This document shows, in pieces, positions 9,528-56,948 of a DNA stretch of 64,000 bases. The translations under genes were made by a program, and so were the position numbers. The stretch's first letter is position 1. The number at the start of each line of letters is the position of its first letter. The stretch is from Channallabes apus (lineage: Eukaryota; Chordata; Actinopteri; Siluriformes; Clariidae), in the NCBI GenBank assembly GCA_030522415.1, contig CM060125.1:29162167-29226166 (forward strand). Direction: 5' to 3'. The notes under the pieces were generated by a model. That model was not told where the DNA came from. It made no database searches and saw only the letters and a program-made list of their open reading frames with translations.

Positions 9528-9538
9528 AATGACTGAGT
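9528..9538 (+). other. Self-priming primer-binding site
   Basis: AATGACTGAGT, one base after the LTR end, is the exact reverse complement of ACTCAGTCATT at 9271-9281 in the same RNA. No TGG (the start of an ordinary tRNA-complementary site) follows the LTR. Tf1 and the vertebrate sushi group are known to prime with the folded-back 5' end of their own transcript over about 11 nt. The gag start codon at 9529 lies within this site. Confidence 0.8.
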
Positions 9539-10575
9539 CTCTGACGGTGAACCCAGCGGATCACGTGCGCCTCTGCGGCGTGGTGGATCGGCATACCGTG
9601 CTGGTTAATAGACTAACCGAGGAGGTCGCTACTCTTCGCCGGAGCGTCCAAGACATCGCGGCCTTGCGCCGCGAGGTTGCGGATCTCAGGCGGGAGAACG
9701 CGGATCTTCGGGCGGCTGTTGCCAGCGCGGCTAACCGGCCTCCTGTCGTGGCGGCCACGGCACCGCATCCCTCTCCCCCCCCCTCCTCTGACATCTTTAT
9801 ATCGTTACCAGAGAAATGGAATGGCACGGACGGGAGGTGCAGTGTGTTTTTGACGGCGCTCGACCTGGTGTTTGAGTTCAATCCCATCAAGTACTCCACC
9901 GATCGGATACGCATTGCTCTCCTCGTTTCGTTGCTCACAGGGCAGGCAGCTGAGTGGGCCACGGCAGTCCTCCAAGCAGACACAGACACCGCCCACTCAT
10001 ACAATGAGTTCACACATCAACTCCGGCTCACTTTTGAACACCCTGCGGGCGAGGTGGAGACCGACACCAAACTTTATCACCTGCAGCAGGGAGGATCGTC
10101 TGTGAGTCGCTATACCGCCGAGTTCCGCACTCTCGCCATTCAAACCACCTGGGGCGATGCAGCGCTCCGGACATCCTACTATGAGGGACTGACGTCAAAG
10201 ATTAAGGATGAATTAGCTGGGCGAGAGCTTCCTGCCACGCTGGAGGGAGTGATCCAACTCGCCCTTCGGATCGACCAACGCCTCCTCTCTCGTCCGACGC
10301 CGGCCCCTAAGACCCTGCCGCCAACACCCACTTTCACCTCCATCACTTCACGTCCATCAAAGTCTGCTACCTACACTTCCCAAGGACATGTTGGTTCTCC
10401 ACCTACTGCCGTGGTTTACACCGGAGCCGGGGAACCCATGCAATTAGGGCGCGCATCCCTGACCGCTGAAGAACGAGAAAGACGTTTTAAAGAAAGACTT
10501 TGTGCTTATTGTGGGTCGGCAGAGCACCACAGAGCCATCTGCCCACGTCGCCAGGGAAACGCCCAGGCCCGGTGA
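9529..10575 (+). CDS. gag: Gag polyprotein of the Gypsy element, 348 aa
   Basis: Structural protein that would assemble the cytoplasmic particle around element RNA. Residues 25-65 are a predicted coiled coil with leucine heptads ([19 protein letters not shown]). About 88-270 is a retrotransposon capsid domain of the kind also kept in PEG10/RTL proteins ([10 protein letters not shown], then [19 protein letters not shown]). A proline-rich linker follows. A single zinc knuckle CX2CX4HX4C occupies C325, C328, H333 and C338. The start at 9529 is the first ATG after the LTR and overlaps the priming site. The stop at 10573-10575 lies within the stem of the frameshift hairpin, so most ribosomes should make Gag alone. 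No break is seen. Confidence 0.93.
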
Positions 10576-13500
10576 GCGCTGGGAGCAGCTCACCGGGCCA
10601 TCTTCACCTCTCTGCTACCATACCTAGCGTCTCTCGTCTCACGGTCCAGGTACACCTCCAGTTTGGCCACAAACGGGTCAGAAGTACCGCATTCATCGAC
10701 TCCGGGGCTGCAGGTAACTTCATTGACTCTTCTTATGCCAAAAGTCTGGAAGTGGAATTTGAAGCGTTATCCCAGCCTGTTAAAATTACATCAGTCGATG
10801 GTCGGCCCCTCTCCTCCAGCCCCATTACCACTCAGACTCAACCCATCACCCTCATCATTGGTCAGCATCAGGAATCAATCCAGTTTCACCTCACCTCCGT
10901 CTCATCACCACCAATCATACTTGGACACCCGTGGCTTCTCCAGCACGATCCGCTCATTTCCTGGAATCAAAACAGGATCCTACAGTGGGGCCCGACCTGT
11001 TCAGAACTCTGCCTACGGGCTTCGGCTGGGACGTGCTCTAGGGAGTCCGAGGCCCCCGACGTCGACACCAACGCCATTCCCGCCGCCTATCAGGACCTGG
11101 CTGAAGCATTTTGTAGGCGACGGGCGATTCACCTACCGCCTCACCGCCCCTACGACCTGGCGATTGACCTTCAGCCGGGTTCCACTCCTCCCCGCGGCCA
11201 TCTCTACTCCCTATCCACCTCCGAGACTCAGGCGATGGAGGAATATGTATCTTCGGCCCTACGTAACGGCACCATCCGACCATCCTCATCGCCTGCCGCC
11301 GCGGGGTTCTTCTTCGTGAAGAAAAAAGGCGGTGACCTACGCCCATGTGTTGACTATCGGGGGCTCAACAACATAACCATTAAGAACAGACATCCATTGC
11401 CGCTTACCAACGCTCTCTCTGGTGCCACCATTTTCACTAAGTTGGACCTCCGGAGTGCCTACAACTTGGTGCGTATCAGAGAGGGCGATGAGTGGAAAAC
11501 GGCCTTCATCACCCCCACAGGACACTACGAAAGCCTGGTAATACCTTTTGGACTTTGCAACGCACCAGCAGCTTTCCAACAGTTTATTAACGATGTTCTC
11601 AGAGACATGCTCGGCAGATGGGTATTCGTCTACCTAGACGACATACTCATCTACTCACACAGCCTCACCGAACACATTCAACACGTCAGAGCAGTACTAA
11701 AGAGATTAGTCGCCCACCAACTGTACTGTAAGTTGGAAAAGTGTGCTTTCCACGAGCACTCCACCACGTTCCTGGGTTTTGTTATCTCGCCCCAGGGTGT
11801 GGCCATGGACCCGCAGAAGCTAGAGGCTGTGCGTCATTGGCCCCTACCCAAGACCCTCAAGCAGCTTCAACGGTTTCTCGGGTTTGCGAACTTCTACCGT
11901 CGCTTTATCCGGGGCTACAGTACAGTTGCGGCCCCCTTAACTGCTCTGACCAGACTCTCGCCCCATCACTTCCAGTTCAACCCGACGGCCATATCCGCCT
12001 TCCATGAACTCTGCCATCGATTTACCACCGCCCCCATTCTCCTTCACCCGGATGCAGATCAACCGTTCGTTGTGGAGGTGGACGCCTCGGATGTGGGCGC
12101 CGGGGCGGTCCTCTCACAACGAGGTCCAGACCAGAAGCTGCACCCCTGCAGTTTCTTTTCCAAAAAATTTGATTCCACTCAGCAGCGATACGGGGTAGGG
12201 GACCGCGAGCTGCTGGCCATAAAGTGGGCATTGGAAGAATGGCGACACTGGCTCCAGGGCGCCAGAGAACCATTCCTCATCTGGACCGATCATCAGAACC
12301 TCATCACCATCCGCAACATTAAGCAGCTGAACCCTCGACAGGCGCGGTGGGCATTGTTCTTCGAGCAGTATAATTTCCATCTGTCCTACCGTCCGGGGTC
12401 CAAGAACATCAAAGCTGACGCCCTCTCACGACAACATGAAGAGGACAGACCCCGGGCGGACCCCGCGCCTGTCCTGCCACCATCCAAGATCATCGCCCCA
12501 CTCCGTTGGGAACTGGAGACCAGGGTTCGCCAGGCACAGTCTGCGGAGAACGAACCGGCAGGTGTGCCGCCTGGACGACTCTATGTTCCAGAGACCCTTC
12601 GAACGGAGGTCATCCAGTGGGGTCACTCCACTCCCATCTCCGGACATCCAGGCACCCAACGCACCATCCAGTTCATCCGCCGTGCCTTCTGGTGGCCTTC
12701 CATGGCCAAGGACGTCAATGAGTTCGTTCAGGCATGCCCAGTGTGCGCCCGGGCCAAGGACACAAACCAACCAACACCCGGGGAACTCCACCCGCTCCCA
12801 GTTCCCCGAAGGCCCTGGACGCACATTGCCGTTGATTTCATCACGGGCCTGCCGGCTTCAGAAGATAAGGACACCATTTTAACCATTGTGGATCGTTTCT
12901 CCAAAGCTGTGCACCTGGTGGCCCTTTCCGGACTCCCGTCAGCTAAACAGACAGCCGAGCTGATATTAGAGCACGTAGTCCGACTGCATGGGTTCCCCAA
13001 GGACATCGTCTCGGACAGGGGGCCCCAGTTCACTGCCCGGTTCTGGAAAGCCTTCTGCCGTCTGATCAACTCCACTTGTAGTCTCTCATCTGGCTACCAC
13101 CCTCAGACCAATGGTCAGACGGAGCGGACCAACCAACAACTGGAGCGCTACTTGAGGTGTTTCGTGGCAGATCGTCAGCGCTCCTGGGCCCGCCACCTCA
13201 CTTGGGCGGAACTTTCACACAACCTTCACGTCTCCACCGCCACCAAGCTAAGCCCATTTGAGGTGTGCCATGGTTTCCAACCAACGATGTTCGAACACCA
13301 AGAACCGGAGGTTGATGTACCCTCGGCCCAACAGTTGGTCCGCAGGTGTCGACGGATATGGCGCCTCGCCAACGCAGCCATCCAACAAGCCAACACCCGC
13401 TACGCCATCCAACATCGCCGTCGACACCCACCGGGACGATTGTACCACGTAGGTGACAAAGTATGGCTGTCTACTAGAAACCTGCACCTCCGCACAGAAT

Positions 13501-13949
13501 CCAAAAAACTCTCCCCCAGATTCGTCGGACCATATCGCATCACTCATCGTATCAACCCTGTCACCTACCGGCTCCAGCTGCCTGCGGCACTCCGGATCCA
13601 TCCAGTATTCCATATTTCTCAACTCAAACCATTCATCACATCACCCATGATTCCACCCACCCCCCCAGCTCCTCCTCCCCGGACCATCGACGGCGGTCTC
13701 GCCTACACCGTACGCCGAATCCTTGACTCGCGCCCTCGGGGCAGAGGTACGCAGTACCTTGTTGACTGGGAGGGCTACGGCCCCGAGGAGCGGTCTTGGA
13801 TCCCGGCCCGGTTCATTCTCGACCCCGAACTGATTCGAGACTACCGTCGCGGGGTATCCTCCACCCCAGGACCATCAGGAGCCGGTCCTGGACAGGGGGG
13901 TACTGTCATGCACACTCAATCTGCGCCCGGCACTAGGACCCGGAAGTAA
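10500..13949 (+). CDS. pol: Pol polyprotein of the Gypsy element (PR-RT-RH-IN-chromodomain)
   Basis: The open frame can be counted from 10500, but that in-frame ATG is probably not used: Pol should be made as a Gag-Pol fusion after the slip at 10554-10560. Numbering from 10500, aspartic protease is at about 50-145 (AFIDSGA, D67). Reverse transcriptase spans about 230-440, with KLDLRSAYN at 314-322 and the catalytic VYLDD motif (D380, D381). RNase H follows with VEVDAS (D528) and WTDHQNL (595-601). Integrase has the zinc site H709, H716, C746, C749, then D779, D839 and E875 (DD35E spacing), and a GPY/F-type module near 1009-1040. A chromodomain at about 1069-1116 ([15 protein letters not shown]) would tether integration to marked chromatin. 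The stop lies inside the 3' LTR. No internal stop or frameshift is seen. Confidence 0.95.
10554..10599 (+). promoter_or_regulatory. Programmed -1 ribosomal frameshift signal
   Basis: Slippery heptamer GGGAAAC at 10554-10560, phased G|GGA|AAC in the gag frame. It is followed by a 5 nt spacer and a perfect 12 bp stem, GGCCCGGTGAGC (10566-10577) with GCTCACCGGGCC (10588-10599), around a 10 nt loop. After slipping, reading continues in the pol frame from 10560. The same heptamer drives frameshifting in PEG10, a domesticated sushi-derived gene. A pseudoknot pairing of the loop was not worked out. Confidence 0.88.
13891..13903 (+). other. Polypurine tract region
   Basis: GGACAGGGGGG immediately before the 3' LTR (then TAC before TGTCATG) is the expected plus-strand primer site. 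It lies within the end of the pol reading frame. Confidence 0.75.
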
Positions 13950-20407: not shown

Positions 20408-21086
20408 CAGAGGTGTCAAGTAACGAAGTACAAATACTTCGTTACCTTACTTAAGTAGAAATTTTGGGTATCTATACTTTACTGGAGTAATTATTTTTCA
20501 GCCGACTTTTTACTTCTACTCCTTACATTTTTAAGCAATTATCTGTACTTTCTACTCCTTACTTTTTAAAAACAGCCTCGTTACTCTATTTTTCTGATCA
20601 GAACGCGCAACCCCTCCGGTCGCATGATAAGAAAGCGGAAAATGCCCCCCCCCGTCACATGATCAGAACGCGCACAACGCCCCCCCCCCCCGTCACATGA
20701 TCAGAACGCGCACAACGCCCCCCCCCGTCACATGATCAGAACGTGCACAACGCCCCCCCGTCACATGATCAGAACGTGCACAACGCCCCCCCCCCTCGTC
20801 ACATGATCAGAACGTGCACAACGCCCCCCCCTCGTCACATGATCAGAACGCGCACAACGCCCCCCCCCCCCCCCGTTGCATGATCAGAAAGCGAGACCTT
20901 AATGCTTTTTTTCCCCCTCACGGTACTTTTACTTTTATACTTTAAGTAGTTTTGAAACCAGTACTTTTAAACTTTTACTTAAGTAAAAAGCTTGGATTGA
21001 TACTTCAACTTCTAAAGAAGTATTTTTGAACCCTAGTATCTATACTTCTACTCAAGTAATGAATGTGAATACTTTTGACACCACTG
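20408..21086 (+). mobile_element. Non-autonomous hAT element, copy A
   Basis: Flanked by the perfect 8 bp duplication GTGAACAG (20400-20407 and 21087-21094). Ends are CAGAGGTGTCAAGTAACGAA and ...TACTTTTGACACCACTG; the interior is full of ACTTTTACTTAAGTA-type subterminal motifs and has no transposase. Removing it restores continuity of the surrounding Tc1 relic. A related 390 bp copy is at 26787-27176. Confidence 0.92.
20600..20885. repeat. Minisatellite inside the hAT element
   Basis: Six or more tandem copies of a ~38 bp unit containing GTCACATGATCAGAACGCGC followed by ACAACG and a C-tract of variable length (7 to 14). The sister element at 26787 has about one copy of this unit, so the array expanded after the family arose. 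Confidence 0.9.
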
Positions 21087-38332: not shown

Positions 38333-39160
38333 ACTGGTCAGTTAGGCTGATTCTACATGGTCATGCTGAATCTACAGGTAGGTGGTCATGGTGGTTCTAT
38401 ATGGTCAGGGTGGTTCTAGGTCGCCATGGTGGGTCTAGGTAATCAGGGTGGTTCTAAATGGTTAAGCTGGATCTAGGAGGTCAAGGTGGTTGTAGATGGT
38501 CAGGCTGGTTCTAGCAGATCAGACTGATTCTACATGGTCAAGCTGCATCTAGGTGGTCAGAGTGGTTTTAGGTGGTCAAGCAATTTCTAGGAGGTCAGGC
38601 TGGGTCTAGCTGATCAGGCTGATACTACATGGTCAAGCTAGACCCAGAAGGGCAGAGTGTTTCTAGCAGATCAAGCTGGATCTTAGTGTTTAGGGGTTTC
38701 TAGGTGGTCAGGGTAGATCTAGGTGGTCAGGCTGCTTCTAGCTGATCAAGCTCATTCTAGGTGGTAAAGATGGTTCTAGGTGGACAAGCTAATTATACAT
38801 GGTACTGTAAAACTGGATCTAGGGTGGTTCTTAGTGGTGAAGCTAAATTTAGCATTCCAGGGTGGTTCTAGGGTGTCAACCTGGATCTTTGTGGTGATGG
38901 TAGTTCTAACTGATCAGGCTGATTCTAGGGAGTCAGGGTGGTTCTAGCAGATGCTACCTGATGCTAGCTCTCGGTTCTCAATGTAGTTTTAGATAATCAA
39001 GCTGGATCTATGTGGTGATTTTGGGACTAGCTGGTTTGCCTGCTCCTATGTGGCAAGGCTGTTTCTAAATTATTACCCTGGCTGGCCAGATGGTATTAAA
39101 AGAACTTTAGACACTTACAGACAGTTTGCCACTGGCAACACTGGTTCTAGAAGATCAGAC
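38333..39160. repeat. Degenerate ~20 bp minisatellite
   Basis: About 40 units of a ~20 bp motif near GGTCAGGCTGGTTCTAGGT, alternating GGTGGTTCTAG with GCTGGATCTAG and GCTGATTCTACAT forms. Units are diverged, and the array has no frame and no transposon ends. It begins 30 bp after a SINE tail. Confidence 0.9.
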
Positions 39161-46956: not shown

Positions 46957-47937
46957 TGAGAGAGAGAGATCAAAAGATAAAAAGACAGAAAAGAAGAAGA
47001 AATGATGAAGAGTGTGAAAAAAGGAGACGTAAATGAAGTTAAGAAGGACAATTGAGAGATGAGGGGGAAAGAGGACAAGAAAAGAATATAATGGAATAGA
47101 AAAGGTGTCAGGATAAGGAGAGAATAAAGGAAGAGAATGTGAGCAAGGTTGGAAAAGAGAGGAGTGTGTAAGGGAGAGAGAGAGAGAGAGAGAGACAGAA
47201 AGGTGAATTTAAAAAGAAAGGAAAGAAGAAAATGTGGAGCGAAAGTACATGAATAGAAAGGTAAAGAGAAAGTATAGAATGAAAGAAGAGGTAAAGGAAC
47301 AGGAAGAGTGAGGTGAGGAGGGATAAAGGGCGAGAAAGGAGCGGAATGAAAGACAAAAGTGGAGGGATAAGGAACGGAGAAAAGAACAGAATGAAGGGTG
47401 TGTTAAAGAGAGAGAAGGAAAAAAATGAGGGAGAAAAGAATACACCTGAAAATGTAGAAGGAGAGGAGGGGAGAAGGGGTGGGATTAGGACGGAATGAAA
47501 GAGGAGAAGACGTACAAGTTGGGGGAAAAGGAAAGGAAGAGATCTTAAAAATGAAATCGAAGCACATGACGATGAAAAAGGTCGAGTACAAAGGACGTCT
47601 GAGGGGTAAAGGGGCAAGAAAGGAACAGAATGGGGAAACAGAAGAAAGGTAAAAACAAAAGGTGTTAAAGATAAGAGAGAAGAAAATGTGCATGATTGAG
47701 GGGTAGAGGTGCATGAAGGAAAGGAAGAGAGGAAAAGAAAGGGAGAGAAAGTGGAGAAGAAGGAAACATGAACAAGGCTGAAGAGACTGAGGAAAGGAAT
47801 CGTGTGGACGGAAGAAAGAAAGTGTAAAAGGAATGGAGAGAAAAATATAGAAGGAAGGTTGAGAATTCAGGGGGTAAGAAGGTGATAAAGGAAATGGGAA
47901 AGAGAAAGAACGTTGAGGAAAGATGAGATGTGAGTAA

Positions 47938-47989
<52 letters not shown>

Positions 47990-47995
47990 TTAAAG
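46957..47995. repeat. 1 kb purine-rich (GA-rich) tract
   Basis: About 1 kb in which the plus strand is overwhelmingly A and G, including GA runs at 47177-47196 and 47942-47984. The pyrimidine strand yields long Ser/Phe/Leu-rich frames that are artefacts. Such strand asymmetry can form triplex (H-DNA) structures; that part is inference. Confidence 0.88.
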
Positions 47996-48670
47996 CAAAT
48001 GAATATGACAAACAGTAAATGAAAAGACGATTGCATCAGTCTGTATTAGACAGCGATATCATGAGGATCCTCCTTCCTCTCTTGTTCTTTAACACAAACT
48101 CATCATCTGTCTCTTTTTTTGCTCCAAAACTCACAGATTTCACATATAATTAATAATACAGTAAAAATAATAATAATAAACCTATATGATAAAAGTACAA
48201 CGTTTTTGCTTATCATCACGGCAACAAATGTTTTTACTCTATTATCCAGTTTCATGCAGTTTTTCATCCCCAAAAAGTAGAAATGTGCAAAAACAATAAA
48301 ATTGTTGCTCAGCCATTAGTTTTTCTGGTTTCTTTGTTTGTTTTAATAACATTAATGTTTAAATAAAAAAGAGTCACTGAAACAATGTTCATTTTACACA
48401 CTTTCATAACCAGATACACTTCAGACGCAGTCATAACCTGCCGAAAAGCATTTTCTTTTAAGTCCAAGAGAGCAGAAGAGAAAGTAGGGATATGATTCAT
48501 CGGTTTATTATAAAGCAGAAAAAAATTATATATTGCTGAGCGAAACGTTTGGGTTTTATAGTGCAAATCGTTTATAGAGCAAATAAGCAGAAGGCAAAGT
48601 TGTAGTTTCAGTGAGATTCACTCTGGAGTTCTCTTCACTTTCTGCTGGAGATCTTGATTTCTCAAGAGAG
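47996..48670. other. No feature seen
   Basis: Anonymous AT-rich DNA between the purine tract and the 8 kb array. Confidence 0.3.
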
Positions 48671-48672
48671 GA

Positions 48673-51600
48673 CACACACACACACTTACAAACTCACACA
48701 CTCACCCCTTCACTCACTCACTCACTCACTCACACACTCACACACTCACCCCTTCACTCACTCACACACTCACTCACTCACTCACACACTCACTCACTCA
48801 CCCCTTCACTCACTCACACACTCACTCACTCACACACTCACCCCTTCACTCACTCACTCACTCACTCACACACTCACTCACTCACTCACTCACACACTCA
48901 CCCCTTCACACACTCACCCCTTCACTCACTCACACACACACTCACCCCTTCACTCACTCACTCACACACTCACTCACTCACACATTCACACACTCACTCA
49001 CACACTCACCCCTTCACTCACTCACTCACACACTCACTCACACACTCACCCCTTCACTCACTCACACACTCACACACTCACCCCTTCACTCACTCACTCA
49101 CTCACACACTCACTCACTCACACACTCACACACTCACTCACCCCTTCACTCACTCACACACTCACTCACACACTCACCCCTTCACTCACTCACTCACTCA
49201 CACACTCACCCCTTCACTCACTCACACACTCACCCCTTCACTCACTCACTCACACACTCAATCAGTCACTCACTCACCCCTTCACTCACACACACACTCA
49301 CTCACACACTCACGCACTCACACACTCACTCACTCACACACTCACCCCTTCACTCACTGACTCACACACTCACTCACACACTCACTCACTCACTCACCCC
49401 TTCACTCACTCACACACTCACTCACACACTCACCCCTTCACTCACTCACACACTCACTCACACACTCACTCACACACTCACTCACCCCTTCACTCACTCA
49501 CACACTCACTCACACACTCACCCCTTCACTCACTCACTCACTCACTCACTCACTCACCCCTTCACTCACTCACACACTCACTCACACACTCACCCCTTCA
49601 CTCACTCACACACTCACTCACTCACCCCTTCACTCACTCACTCACTCACTCACACACTCACTCACACACTCACCCCTTCACTCACTCACACACTCACTCA
49701 CCCCTTCACTCACTCACACACTCACCCCTTCACTCACTCACACACTCACTCACTCACACACTCACTCACACACTCACTCACACACTCACTCACTCACCCC
49801 TTCACTCACTCACTCACTCATTCACTCAGTCACTCACTCACCCCTTCACTCACTCACTCACTCACACACTCACTCACACACCCCTTCACTCACACACTTA
49901 CTCACTCACTCACTCACACTCACACACTCAATCACTCACACACTCACCCCTTCATACACTCACTCAGACACTCACTCACTCACTCACACACTCACTCACA
50001 CACTCACCCCTTCACTCACACACTCACTCACACACTCACACACTCACTCACCCCTTCACTCACTCACACACTCACTCATTCACACACTCACCCCTTCACT
50101 CACTCACTCACACACTCACTCACTCACTCACACACTCACTCACTCACCCCTTCACTCACTCACACACTCACTCACACACTCACCCCTTCACTCACTCACA
50201 CACTCACCCCTTCACTCACACACTTATTCACTCACACTCACTCACACACTCACTCACTCACACTCACTCACCCCTTCACTCACTCACACACTCACCCCTT
50301 CACTCACTCACCCCTTCACTCACTCACACACTCACTCACACACTCACTCACCCCTTCACTCACTCACACACTCACTCACTCACCCCTTCACTCACTCACA
50401 CACCCCTTCACTCATTCACTCAGTCACTCACACTCACTCACTCACTCACTCACACACTCACCCCTTCACTCACTCACTCACACACTCACCCCTTCACTCA
50501 CTCACCCCTTCACTCACACACTCACTCACTCACACACTCACACACTCACTCACTCACCCCTTCACTCACTCACACACTCACCCCTTCACTCACTCACTCA
50601 CACACTCACTCACTCACTCACACACTCACTCACTCACTCACTCACCCCTTCACTCACTCACACACTCACTCACACACTCACCCCTTCACTCACTCACACA
50701 CTCACTCACACACTCACTCACTCACACACTCAGTCACTCACTAACCCCTTCACTCACACACACTCACCCCTTCACTCATTCACTCAGTCACTCACTCACC
50801 CCTTCACTCACACACTCACACACTCACTCACACACTCACCCCTTCACTCACACACTTACTCACTCACTCACACTCACTCACACACTCACTCACTCACACT
50901 CACTCACCCCTTCACTCACTCACTCACTCACTGACACACTCACCCCTTCACTCACACACTCACTCACTCACCCCTTCACTCACTCACACACTCACTCACT
51001 CACCCCTTCACTCAGTCACTCACACTCACACACTCACTCACACACTCACCCCTTCACTCACACACTTATTCACTCACACTCACTCACACACTCACTCACA
51101 CTCACTCACCCCTTCACTCACTCACACACTCACCCCTTCACTCACTCACTCACACACTCACTCACCCCTTCACTCACTCACACACTCACTCACACACTCA
51201 CTCACCCCTTCACTCACTCACACACTCACTCACTCACCCCTTCACTCACTCACACACCCCTTCACTCATTCACTCAGTCACTCACACTCACTCACTCACT
51301 CACACACTCACCCCTTCACTCACTCACTCACTCACTCACACACTCACCCCTTCACTCACTCACCCCTTCACTCACACACTCACTCACTCACACACTCACT
51401 CACTCACCCCTTCACTCACTCACACACTCACCCCTTCACTCACTCACTCACACACTCACTCACACACTCACTCACTCACCCCTTCACTCACTCACACACT
51501 CACTCACACACTCACCCCTTCACTCACTCACACACTCACTCACACACTCACTCACCCCTTCACTCACTCACACACTCACCCCTTCACTCACTCACTCACT

Positions 51601-54600
51601 CACACACTCACTCACTCACTCACTCACTCACTCACCCCTTCACTCACTCACTCACACACTCACTCACTCACTCACTCACCCCTTCACTCACTCACTCACA
51701 CACTTACTCACTCACTCACACTCACACACTCACTCACTCACTCACACACTCACCCCTTCATACACTCACTCACACACTCACTCACTCACCCCTTCACTCA
51801 TTCACTCAGTCACTCACTCACCCCTTCACTCACTCACTCACTCACTCACTCACTCACTCACTCACACACTCACTCACACACTCACCCCTTCACTCACACA
51901 CTTACTCACTCACTCACACACTCACTCACACACTCACCCCTTCATACACTCACTCACACACTCACTCACTCACACACTCACTCACTCACTCACCCCTTCA
52001 CTCACACACTCACTCACACACTCACCCCTTCACTCACTCACACACTCACTCACACACTCACACACCCCTTCACTCACTCACACACTCACTCACTCACACA
52101 CTCACCCCTTCACTCACTCACACACTCACTCACTCACTCACACACTCACTCACTCACCCCTTCACTCACTCACACACTCACTCACACACTCACCCCTTCA
52201 CTCACTCACACACTCACCCCTTCACTCACACACTCACTCACTCACACACTCAATCAGTCACTCACTCACCCCTTCACTCACACACACACTCACTCACACA
52301 CTCACGCACTCACCCCTTCACTCACTCACACACTCACCCCTTCACTCACTCACTCACACACTCACTCACACACTCACTCACTCACTCACCCCTTCACTCA
52401 CTGACACACTCACTCACACACTCACCCCTTCACTCACTCACACACTCACACACTCACCCCTTCACTCACTCACTCACACACTCACTCACTCACTCACCCC
52501 TTCACTCACTCACACACTCACTCACACACTCATTCACCCCTTCACTCACTCACACACTCACACACTCACCCCTTCACTCACTCACACACTCACTCACACA
52601 CTCACTCACACACTCACTCACTCACCCCTTCACTCACTCACTCACTCAGTCACTCACTCACCCCTTCACTCACTCACTCACTCACTCAGTCACTCACTCA
52701 CCCCTTCACTCACTCACTCACTCACCCCTTCACTCACTCACTCACACACTTACTCACTCACTCACACTCACACACTCACTCACTCACACACTCACCCCTT
52801 CATACACTCACTCACACACTCACTCACTCACTCACTCACACACTCACTCACTCACACACTCACCCCTTCACTCACACACTCACTCACACACTCACTCACC
52901 CCTTCACTCACTCACACACTCACCCCTTCACTCACTCACTCACACACTCACTCACTCACTCACACACTCACTCACACACTCACTCACTCACCCCTTCACT
53001 CACTCACACACTCACTCACACACTCACCCCTTCACTCACTCACACACTCACCCCTTCACTCACTCACACACTCACACACTCAGTCACTCACTCACCCCTT
53101 CACTCACACACACACTCACCCCTTCACTCATTCACTCAGTCACTCACTCACCCCTTCACTCACACACTCACTCACACACTCACCCCTTCACTCACACACT
53201 TACTCACTCACTCAAACTCACTCACTCACTCACTCACTGACACACTCACCCCTTCACTCACACACTCACTCGCTCACACACTCACTCACCCCTTCACTCA
53301 CTCACACACTCACACACTCACTCACTCACCCCTTCACTCACTCACACACTCACTCACTCACCCCTTCACTCATTCACTCAGTCACTCACATTCACTCACA
53401 CACTCACTCACACACTCACCCCTTCACTCACACACTTATTCACTCACACTCACTCACACACTCACTCACTCACACACTCACCCCTTCACTCACTCACTCA
53501 CACACTCACTCACCCCTTCACTCACTCACACACTCACTCACACACTCACTCACCCCTTCACTCACTCACTCACACACTCACTCACTCACCCCTTCACTCA
53601 CTCACCCATTCACTCATTCACTCAGTCACTCACACTCACTCACTCACTCACACACTCACCCCTTCACTCACTCACTCACTCACTCACACACTCACCCCTT
53701 CACTCACTCACCCCTTCACTCACTCACACACTCACTCACTCACCCCTTCACTCACTCAAACACTCACCCCTTCACTCACTCACTCACTCACTCACACACT
53801 CACTCACACACTCACTCACACACTCACTCACACACACACTCACCCCTTCACTCACTCACTCACACACTCACACACTCACTCACACACTCACTCACTCACT
53901 CACCCCTTCACTCACTCACACACTCACTCACACACTCACTCACCCCTTCACTCACTCACACACTCACCCCTTCACTCACTCACACACTCACTCACTCACA
54001 CACTCACTCACTCACCCCTTCACTCACACATTCACTCACTCACTCACACACTCACTCAGTCACTCACTCACCCCTTCACTCACACACACACTCACCCCTT
54101 CACTCATTCACTCAGTCACTCACTCACCCCTTCACTCACTCACTCACTCACACACTCACTCACACACTCACCCCTTCACTCACTCACTCACACACTCACT
54201 CACTCACACACTCACTCACTCACCCCTTCACTCACTCACACACTCACTCACACACTCACCCCTTCACTCTCTCACACACTCACCCCGTCACTCACTCACA
54301 CACTCACTCACTCACACACAGTCACTCACTCACCCCTTCACTCACACACACACTCACCCCTTCACTCATTCACTCAGTCACTCACTCACCCCTTCATTCA
54401 CTCACTCACACACTCACTCACACACTCACCCCTTCACTCACACACTTACTCACTCACACTCACTCACACACTCACTCACTCACACTCACTCACCCCTTCA
54501 CTCACTCACTCACTCACTCACTGACACACTCACCCCTTCACTCACACACTCACTCACACACTCACTCACCCCTTCACTCACTCACACACTCACACACTCA

Positions 54601-56662
54601 CTCACTCACCCCTTCACTCACTCACACACTCACTCACTCACCCCTTCACTCATTCACTCACACTCACTCACTCACACACTCACTCACACACTCACCCCTT
54701 CACTCACACACTTATTCACTCACACTCACTCACACACTCACTCACACTCACTCACCCCTTCACTCACTCACCCCTTCACTCACTCACACACTCACTCACC
54801 CCTTCACTCACTCACACACTCACTCACACACTCACTCACTCACACACTCACTCACCCCTTCACTCACTCACTCACTCACCCCTTCACTCATTCACTCAGT
54901 CACTCACACTCACTCACACACTCACCCCTTCACTCACTCACTCACTCACACACTCACCCCTTCACTCACTCACCCCTTCACTCACTCACTCACTCACTCA
55001 CACACTCACTCACACACTCACTCACTCACCCCTTCACTCACTCACACACTCACCCCTTCACTCACTCACTCACACACTCACTCACACACTCACTCACTCA
55101 CTCACCCCTTCACTCACTCATACACTCACCCCTTCACTCACACACTCACTCACACACTCACTCACTCACACACTCACCCCTTCACTCACTCACTCACACA
55201 CTCACTCACACACTCACTCACTCACCCCTTCACTCACTCACACACTCACTCACCCCTTCACTCACTCACACACTCACCCCTTCACTCACACACTCACTCA
55301 CTCACCCCTTCACTCACTCACACACTCACTCACTCACACACTCACTCAGTCACTCACTCACACACACACTCACCCCTTCACTCATTCACTCACACACTCA
55401 CTCACACACTCACCCCTTCACTCACACACTTACTCACTCACACTCACTCACTCACACACTCACCCCTTCATACACTCACTCACACACTCACTCACTCACT
55501 CACACACTCACTCACACACTCACTCACTCACCCCTTCACTCACTCACACACTCACTCACACACTCACCCCTTCACTCACTCACACACTCACTCACACACT
55601 CACACACTCACTCACCCCTTCACTCACTCACACACTCACTCACTCACACACTCACCCCTTCACTCACTCACTCACACACTCACACACTCACTCACCCCTT
55701 CACTCACTCACACACTCACTCACTCACACACTCACCCCTTCACTCACTCACTCACACACTCACTCACTCACTCACACACTCACTCACTCACTCACACACT
55801 CACCCCTTCACTCACTCACACACTCACCCCTTCACTCACTCACACACTCACTCACTCACACACTCAGTCACTCACTCACCCCTTCACTCACACACACACT
55901 CACCCCTTCACTCATTCACTCAGTCACTCACTCACTCACACACTCACTCACACACTCACCCCTTCACTCACACACTTACTCACTCACACTCACTCACACA
56001 CTCACTCACTCACACTCACTCACCCCTTCACTCACTCACTCACTCACACACTCACCCCTTCACTCACCCCTTCACTCACTCACACACTCACACACTCACT
56101 CACACACTCACTCACTCACCCCTTCACTCATTCACTCAGTCACTCACACTCACTCACTCACACACTCACCCCTTCACTCACACACTTATTCACTCACACT
56201 CACTCACACACTCACTCACTCACACTCACTCACCCCTTCACTCACTCACACACTCACCCCTTCACTCACTCACTCACACACTCACTCACCCCTTCACTCA
56301 CTCACACACTCACTCACCCCTTCACTCACTCACTCACACACTCACTCACTCACCCCTTCACTCACTCACACACTCACTCACCCCTTCACTTATTCACTCA
56401 GTCACTCACACTCACTCACTCACACACTCACCCCTTCACTCACTCACTCACTCACACACTCACCCCTTCACTCACTCACCCCTTCACTCACTCACTCACT
56501 CACTCACACTCACTCACCCCTTCACTCACTCACTCACCCCTTCACTCACTCACTCACACACTCACTCACACACTCACTCACTCACACACTCACCCCTTCA
56601 CTCACTCACTCACCCCTTCACTCACACACTCACTCACTCACACACTCACTCTCACACTCACC
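48673..56662. repeat. 8 kb CACT-based satellite array
   Basis: A continuous array covering about an eighth of the window. It is built of tetramers CACT with two frequent octamer variants, CACACACT and CACCCCTT, and rarer CATT, CAGT and TATT forms. Phase is 4 bp almost throughout, with occasional 2 bp slips. CACCCCTT recurs roughly every 30-45 bp. Longer signatures recur: CACTTATTCACTCACACTCA near 50221, 51063, 53433, 54709 and 56183, and CATTCACTCAGTCACTCA at many sites, which indicates amplification of larger blocks. The plus strand has almost no stop codons, so long His/Ser/Leu/Thr/Pro frames appear; these are not genes. Edges are GGACACACACAC at the left and CACCTGAGGACTTG at the right. 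Confidence 0.97.
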
Positions 56663-56702
56663 TGAGGACTTGATTCATTGCTTTCAGTTATCCAGAGTGA
56701 TA

Positions 56703-56873
56703 CATGGTAGACAGCTAGCTAACACTCGAAGTTGGCCACACCCCTAAGTGTCAAATAAATTATCATTTAAAATGAATGATGAGTAATTAGGGGCGTGGTC
56801 GATTTGAGTGACACCTGTAAAGCAGGTGTCAAAAGCTGTAACGCGGTTCTAACACCGCTAGCTGTCTGCCATG
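56703..56873. mobile_element. Small foldback MITE beside the array
   Basis: 171 bp with near-perfect 17 bp inverted ends (CATGGTAGACAGCTAGC versus CATGGCAGACAGCTAGC). An inner inverted pair CCACACCCCTAA / TTAGGGGCGTGG and AGGTGTCAAAAGCTGT lie between them. It has no coding capacity and lies 40 bp from the array edge. Confidence 0.6.
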
Positions 56874-56948
56874 CATCACTTTAGACTTTAGAAATTTATC
56901 TTCAAACACCCACACACACAACACACCCACACACACAGACACACCCAC

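Follow-up and report, generated by a model that had tools for sequence, protein, structure and literature searches.

In the sections of a survey of human arrays that are drawn on here (PMC2588610), simple-sequence and VNTR arrays show higher-order repeats at the kilobase scale. At Xp22.33, for example, an 18 kb array with a 61 bp unit is described, in which irregular repeats measure 1.6 and 2.5 kb. The same sections treat a single-locus VNTR class and report 24,358 TRF arrays of 600-10,000 bp. For fish, the parts of PMC10546739 used here state that the content of repeats with units of 1-10 bp varies widely among teleosts and changes mainly by slippage.

When the array described below was set beside these accounts, it was found to belong to a known kind, and its closest precedent in the material consulted is the human survey (PMC2588610). 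The human arrays and the present array are alike in being simple-sequence arrays with kilobase-scale higher-order repeats. They differ in that the present array is built of CACT words together with CACCCCTT and has, in the assembly, a vocabulary private to one locus. PMC10546739, in the parts used, measures short repeats genome-wide, whereas the present array is one 8 kb locus with nested duplications. We consider it very probable, as judged from one assembly, that this is a locus-specific array of the minisatellite/VNTR type, in which a CACT seed would have grown by slippage and by duplication at the kilobase scale.

Extent, composition and register of the array

The window, by which the whole analysed stretch of 64 kb is meant, corresponds to C22:29162167-29226166 of an assembly with 1,164,683,209 bases in 93 contigs, and contains 0 N letters. 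A CACT-family tandem array occupies positions 48673-56662, with the C-rich strand as the + strand. It is 7,990 nt long as assembled (0 N), and the sequence across its ends showed both edges to be clean. The left edge (48672-48690, + strand) is a short (CA)n run leading into the array, which may have had a role as seed. Three overlapping TRF rows were obtained over the array (48672-56651, 48695-56661 and 48692-56661; periods 16, 12 and 32), and the second-longest TRF array of the window has 412 bp. The base counts are C 4105, A 2154, T 1696 and G 35, which leaves 27 % purines on the + strand. When the array was cut after each T-run, 1457 words were obtained, the commonest being CACT (838), CACACACT (276) and CACCCCTT (190), and CATTCACTCAGT was found at 13 places. 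The original prediction of a single continuous array of about 2,000 tetramers (7990/4), with a strong purine difference between the strands and a vocabulary of its own, agrees with these figures.

CCCCTT occurs 195 times in the array, on one strand, and 194 of these sites have the form CACCCCTT. All 194 distances between successive sites are even (176 are 0 mod 4, 18 are 2 mod 4 and 0 are odd). The register of tetramers is thus preserved for the most part, and 18 distances are shifted by 2 nt. The sites could also be read as about 195 candidate CACCC-type motifs, which we take to be sites for KLF/Sp zinc-finger proteins, kept by selection within a functional element. Their number and their position on one strand would fit such an element, but they are unevenly spaced, at 12 to 76 nt, and the number is accounted for by the duplications described below. 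In addition, no host-gene Pfam domain was found in six frames of the flanks at 32.0-47.0 and 57.0-64.0 kb. The lone Pfam match in the scanned flanks was ALKBH8_N near 61.7 kb (23 bits; cut-off 21), presumably the tail of a LINE-type element. From the sequence, a functional element thus appears extremely improbable; the array is most likely selectively neutral non-coding DNA, and no function is needed as an explanation.

Higher-order structure

The array (48690-56662) was aligned with itself on words, with rare words weighted up. Six off-diagonal alignments stood out, namely 50511-53724 with 52833-56492 (score 113), 52909-55118 with 54157-56606 (103), 50567-52290 with 54157-55900 (98), 50563-51492 with 55717-56606 (96), 50193-50718 with 51035-51552 (80.8) and 49023-50216 with 51999-53060 (71.8). 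The best score below these six was 45. Shuffling the blocks that end in CCCCTT gave maxima of 49.1 (n=6) and 48.9 (n=60), which all six alignments exceed, and shuffling single words gave a maximum of 13.5 (n=6). When united, the six alignments cover about 95 % of the array (49023-56606). An exact repeat of 149 nt (50301/51155) is the longest, compared with 94-121 nt in 20 block shuffles. The array therefore carries internal higher-order duplication beyond that of shuffles, a feature of minisatellite/VNTR arrays with higher-order repeats. These internal duplications at the kilobase scale were absent from the original prediction.

Four superunits, with starts near 50.70, 53.07, 54.31 and 55.86 kb, were observed when the array was printed as words. 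They have a landmark order that is largely common to all, and vary mainly in the count of CACT and CACACACT words between landmarks. All are read on the + strand. The first copy (50695-51995; 1.3 kb printed, boundaries approximate) aligns to the later copies. The second (53073-54312) and third (54313-55856) each run to the start of the following copy, and the fourth (55857-56662) breaks off where the array ends on the right; these three were placed from the word alignment and the printed words. A plain tetranucleotide microsatellite produced by slippage alone was rejected, as the TRF matches are 75-77 % and kilobase-scale duplications are present.

Divergence of the duplicated copies

The cleanest duplicated segment is 50193-50718 (+ strand; partner 51035-51552), which contains the 149-nt exact repeat. 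All 494 of its 494 aligned bases are identical to those of the partner, and the two copies differ by 7 indels (five of 0 mod 4 and two of 2 mod 4). With 0 mismatches against 7 indels, length changes in word steps have outpaced substitutions since this duplication. In the remaining five pairs, mismatches number 10 to 72 and indels 21 to 86, and more than half of the indels in each pair are multiples of four.

An identity of about 0.96 was also reached when segments of the array were paired at random, and nucleotide identity therefore sets the larger pairs apart from controls only weakly. The controls consisted of at most 10 random pairs per comparison, with close pairs removed, and some of them are possibly related themselves. 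The pair at offset 2322 has an identity of 0.977 with 27.9 indels per kb, while the controls reached at most 0.973 and had at least 29.0. The indel rates of two longer pairs (32.3 and 29.6 per kb) fall within the control range. For the duplicated segment at 49023-50216 (+ strand; partner 51999-53060), a same-length check gave 0.961 and 29.5 indels per kb, no better than the controls (mean 0.960; minimum 27.1). Support for the longer pairs thus comes from the word-level scores, and at the nucleotide level they appear modestly better than random pairs.

A vocabulary private to the locus

In the 1.165 Gb assembly, one strand has 180 copies of the 18-mer CACTCACCCCTTCACTCA and the other has 0. The window alone contains 180 copies, equal to the assembly total, and the core of the 18-mer is absent from the window outside the array. 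Among the matches listed, 100 places were given for CACTCACCCCTTCACTCA, and 100/100 lie inside the array. Likewise, all 14 assembly places of a 40-mer with two CACCCCTT are in the array (14/14). The pattern (CACT)6, in contrast, gave 1812 + 1969 matches in the genome with overlaps counted, of which 9 are in the window. Among the 100 of 3781 matches listed, a hand count gave 31 clusters on C1 between 0.41 and 42.98 Mb, places within 12 kb being merged; the reversed-pattern control is the same repeat and says nothing. Since (CACT)6 is widespread and 180/180 copies of CACTCACCCCTTCACTCA are at one locus, the assembly has a common seed but a private dialect. The tandem array is long and restricted to one locus, as expected of a locus-specific minisatellite/VNTR.

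These counts bear on the possibility that the array is an outlier of a true satellite family that is abundant elsewhere, in centromeres or heterochromatin. Its length of 8 kb and its higher-order structure would suit such a family. However, no copy of the 18-mer lies elsewhere in the assembly, a count which unassembled repeats escape, and the array is located 3.2 Mb from the end of C22 (32,425,426 bases) beside a left flank (48190-48672) that is single-copy, its 1 genome match being itself. We regard an abundant family as highly unlikely; within the assembled sequence, a dispersed satellite is ruled out by the 18-mer and 40-mer counts. The word satellite in the original prediction, taken as an abundant family, is accordingly not upheld for a locus-specific array. 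Its statement that no named satellite with a CACT-type unit is known was in line with the literature searched, where none was found; the Repbase and Dfam catalogues were outside the scope of the comparison. A text search of that literature gave 0 occurrences of a string containing CACCCCTT, and an Rfam scan at the gathering score gave 0 matches. Pattern scans of viral and prokaryotic contig collections also gave 0 matches, to which little weight is given with collections of that kind.

Related arrays in the same genome

When 26 loci of 10 kb were compared (20 spread over C1-C20 and 6 around the window, one of which is half N), a single locus, L009, 59 kb upstream, was notable for CACT words. 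It contains an array of 2.7 kb at L009:6873-9580 (C22:29149039-29151746) with a TRF period of 28. Of the 19-mer TTACTGACCCTCTCACTCA, the assembly contains 32 copies, 32/32 of them in the L009 array, and 40-mer offsets within the array peak at 835, 1389 and 554. Other tandem arrays of kilobase size in the 20 spread loci were one of 1600 bp in L018 and one of 806 bp in L030.

A third CACT-family array, in the opposite orientation, covers at least C1:24645601-24658554 (L036, L035 and L037). GAGAGACTGTGTGAGTGAG occurs 40 times in the C1 stretch examined and 0 times in the window, and the 60-mer offsets of the C1 array are 1568, 1564 and 3328. This array says nothing on the frequency of such arrays, because it was found via a search for CACT runs. 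Its repeat flanks an N run of exactly 5000 on both sides. An N run of exactly 5000 was also seen at L011:4001-9000.

The N run inside the C1 array, either a gap or a withheld stretch, is of relevance to an assembly artefact, in which the assembler would have inflated or scrambled a shorter array. Repeats of this type are hard to assemble, and the similar array on C1 surrounds such a run. The window, however, contains 0 N, and its superunit copies have their own differences, which are not expected from plain duplication by an assembler. An artefact is thus very improbable, and the array of the window is treated here as a real locus-specific array, within which some assembly error may be present.

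The window array and those of L009 and C1 are alike in being long, in consisting of CACT-family tetramers and in having internal offsets at the kilobase scale. Their vocabularies are different, with TTACTGACCCTCTCACTCA in L009 and GAGAGACTGTGTGAGTGAG in C1; the 10 kb of L009 contain a single copy of the bare 8-mer CACCCCTT, and the C1 stretch examined contains 0. Three such arrays have been seen, and in two of them (window and L009) the diagnostic word is locus-private across the assembly. We see about an even chance that the genome has a class of long arrays that are independent of one another, each seeded by CACT, with a private dialect and its own kilobase-scale higher-order structure. If this is true, it would provide a natural replicate experiment on satellite birth, in which a single genome would contain many loci that share a seed and have reached different stages.

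Taken alone, the present array adds one example to the locus-specific tandem arrays. Its use lies in a word order from which the history of nested duplications can be read, and in the presence, in the same genome, of arrays with the same seed and other words. Comparisons between loci and between individuals could test how a microsatellite becomes a higher-order array.

Proposed origin

In the order of events that we infer, a CACT microsatellite of the kind spread over the genome would have started the array. This seed would then have acquired the point variants CACA, CACC-CCTT, CAGT, CATT and TACT, and slippage of tetramers and octamers would have altered the number of words between the variant landmarks. 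Less often, segments of about 0.8-2.3 kb would have been duplicated and whole runs of landmarks copied with them, giving rise to the irregular higher-order repeat. These kilobase duplications could most simply have occurred via unequal exchange between sister chromatids, or via template switching in repair or replication.

G-rich structures were also proposed in the original prediction for the G-rich strand. On that strand, 0 G-quadruplex patterns of at least three G were found with loops of 1-7 or 1-12 nt, and G4Hunter values of at least 1.2 were obtained in 1.3 % of 25-nt windows (maximum 1.56). The proposal was therefore not supported, and the four G-runs with short loops of a G-quadruplex-forming repeat are lacking. 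Runs of four G with loops of up to 30 nt gave 4 matches. In two samples of 140 nt, each strand had a predicted minimum free energy of 0, by a method that omits G-quadruplexes. With the G4 scan and a free energy of 0, a G-quadruplex or hairpin as the driver of the array has little support.

Open frame and peptide-level similarity

An open frame of 696 aa extends over 48654-50744 and is attributed to a composition poor in stop codons. When a 300-aa stretch of the frame was used in a protein search, 1052 matches at E <= 0.001 were obtained among 7991 scored candidates. Among the best 120 of the 1052 matches, LTHSLTH was found in 84, LTPSL in 20, HPFTH in 11 and SPLHS in 0, the last three peptides being the three ways in which the CACCCCTT word can be translated in its usual sequence context. 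Similar words may thus exist in other genomes, at the peptide level. One match, P0029, contains the run LTPSLTHSLTHTLTPSLT. This predicted protein comes from a different source; it carries a NIF-type domain (PF03031), and its tail consists of LTPSLTHSLTHTLTPSL words. Such a tail is what a CACT/CACCCCTT-like array would be predicted to encode. Since the comparison is at the protein level only and other codons give the same letters, P0029 is evidence neither for nor against the presence of these DNA words in other places. A coding role was rejected, and the protein matches were taken as low-complexity similarity and not as homology.

Surroundings of the array

To the right of the array and outside it, a short MITE-like element was found at 56691-56885. 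Its 29-nt inverted arms (56691-56719 and 56857-56885) are 86 % complementary, and 28 further partial matches in the genome have identities of 70-89 %. On the other side, 0.7 kb left of the array, 46960-47990 is a purine-rich stretch of about 1 kb, with 84 % purines in 47001-47500 and 82 % in 47501-48000. The GC skew is 0.78 in 47001-48000, and TRF reported just a short GA run there.

Elsewhere in the window, many CA repeats were reported by TRF, in addition to two short minisatellites at 20611-20869 (TRF period 38) and 38379-38790 (19/38). The CA repeats, together with the transposase frame given below, suggest that the DNA is that of a teleost. Two long open frames at 9529-13949 look like the gag and pol of what we assume to be a gypsy-type retrotransposon. 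An open frame of 337 aa for a transposase of the Tc1/Sleeping Beauty type is present on the minus strand at 236-1249.
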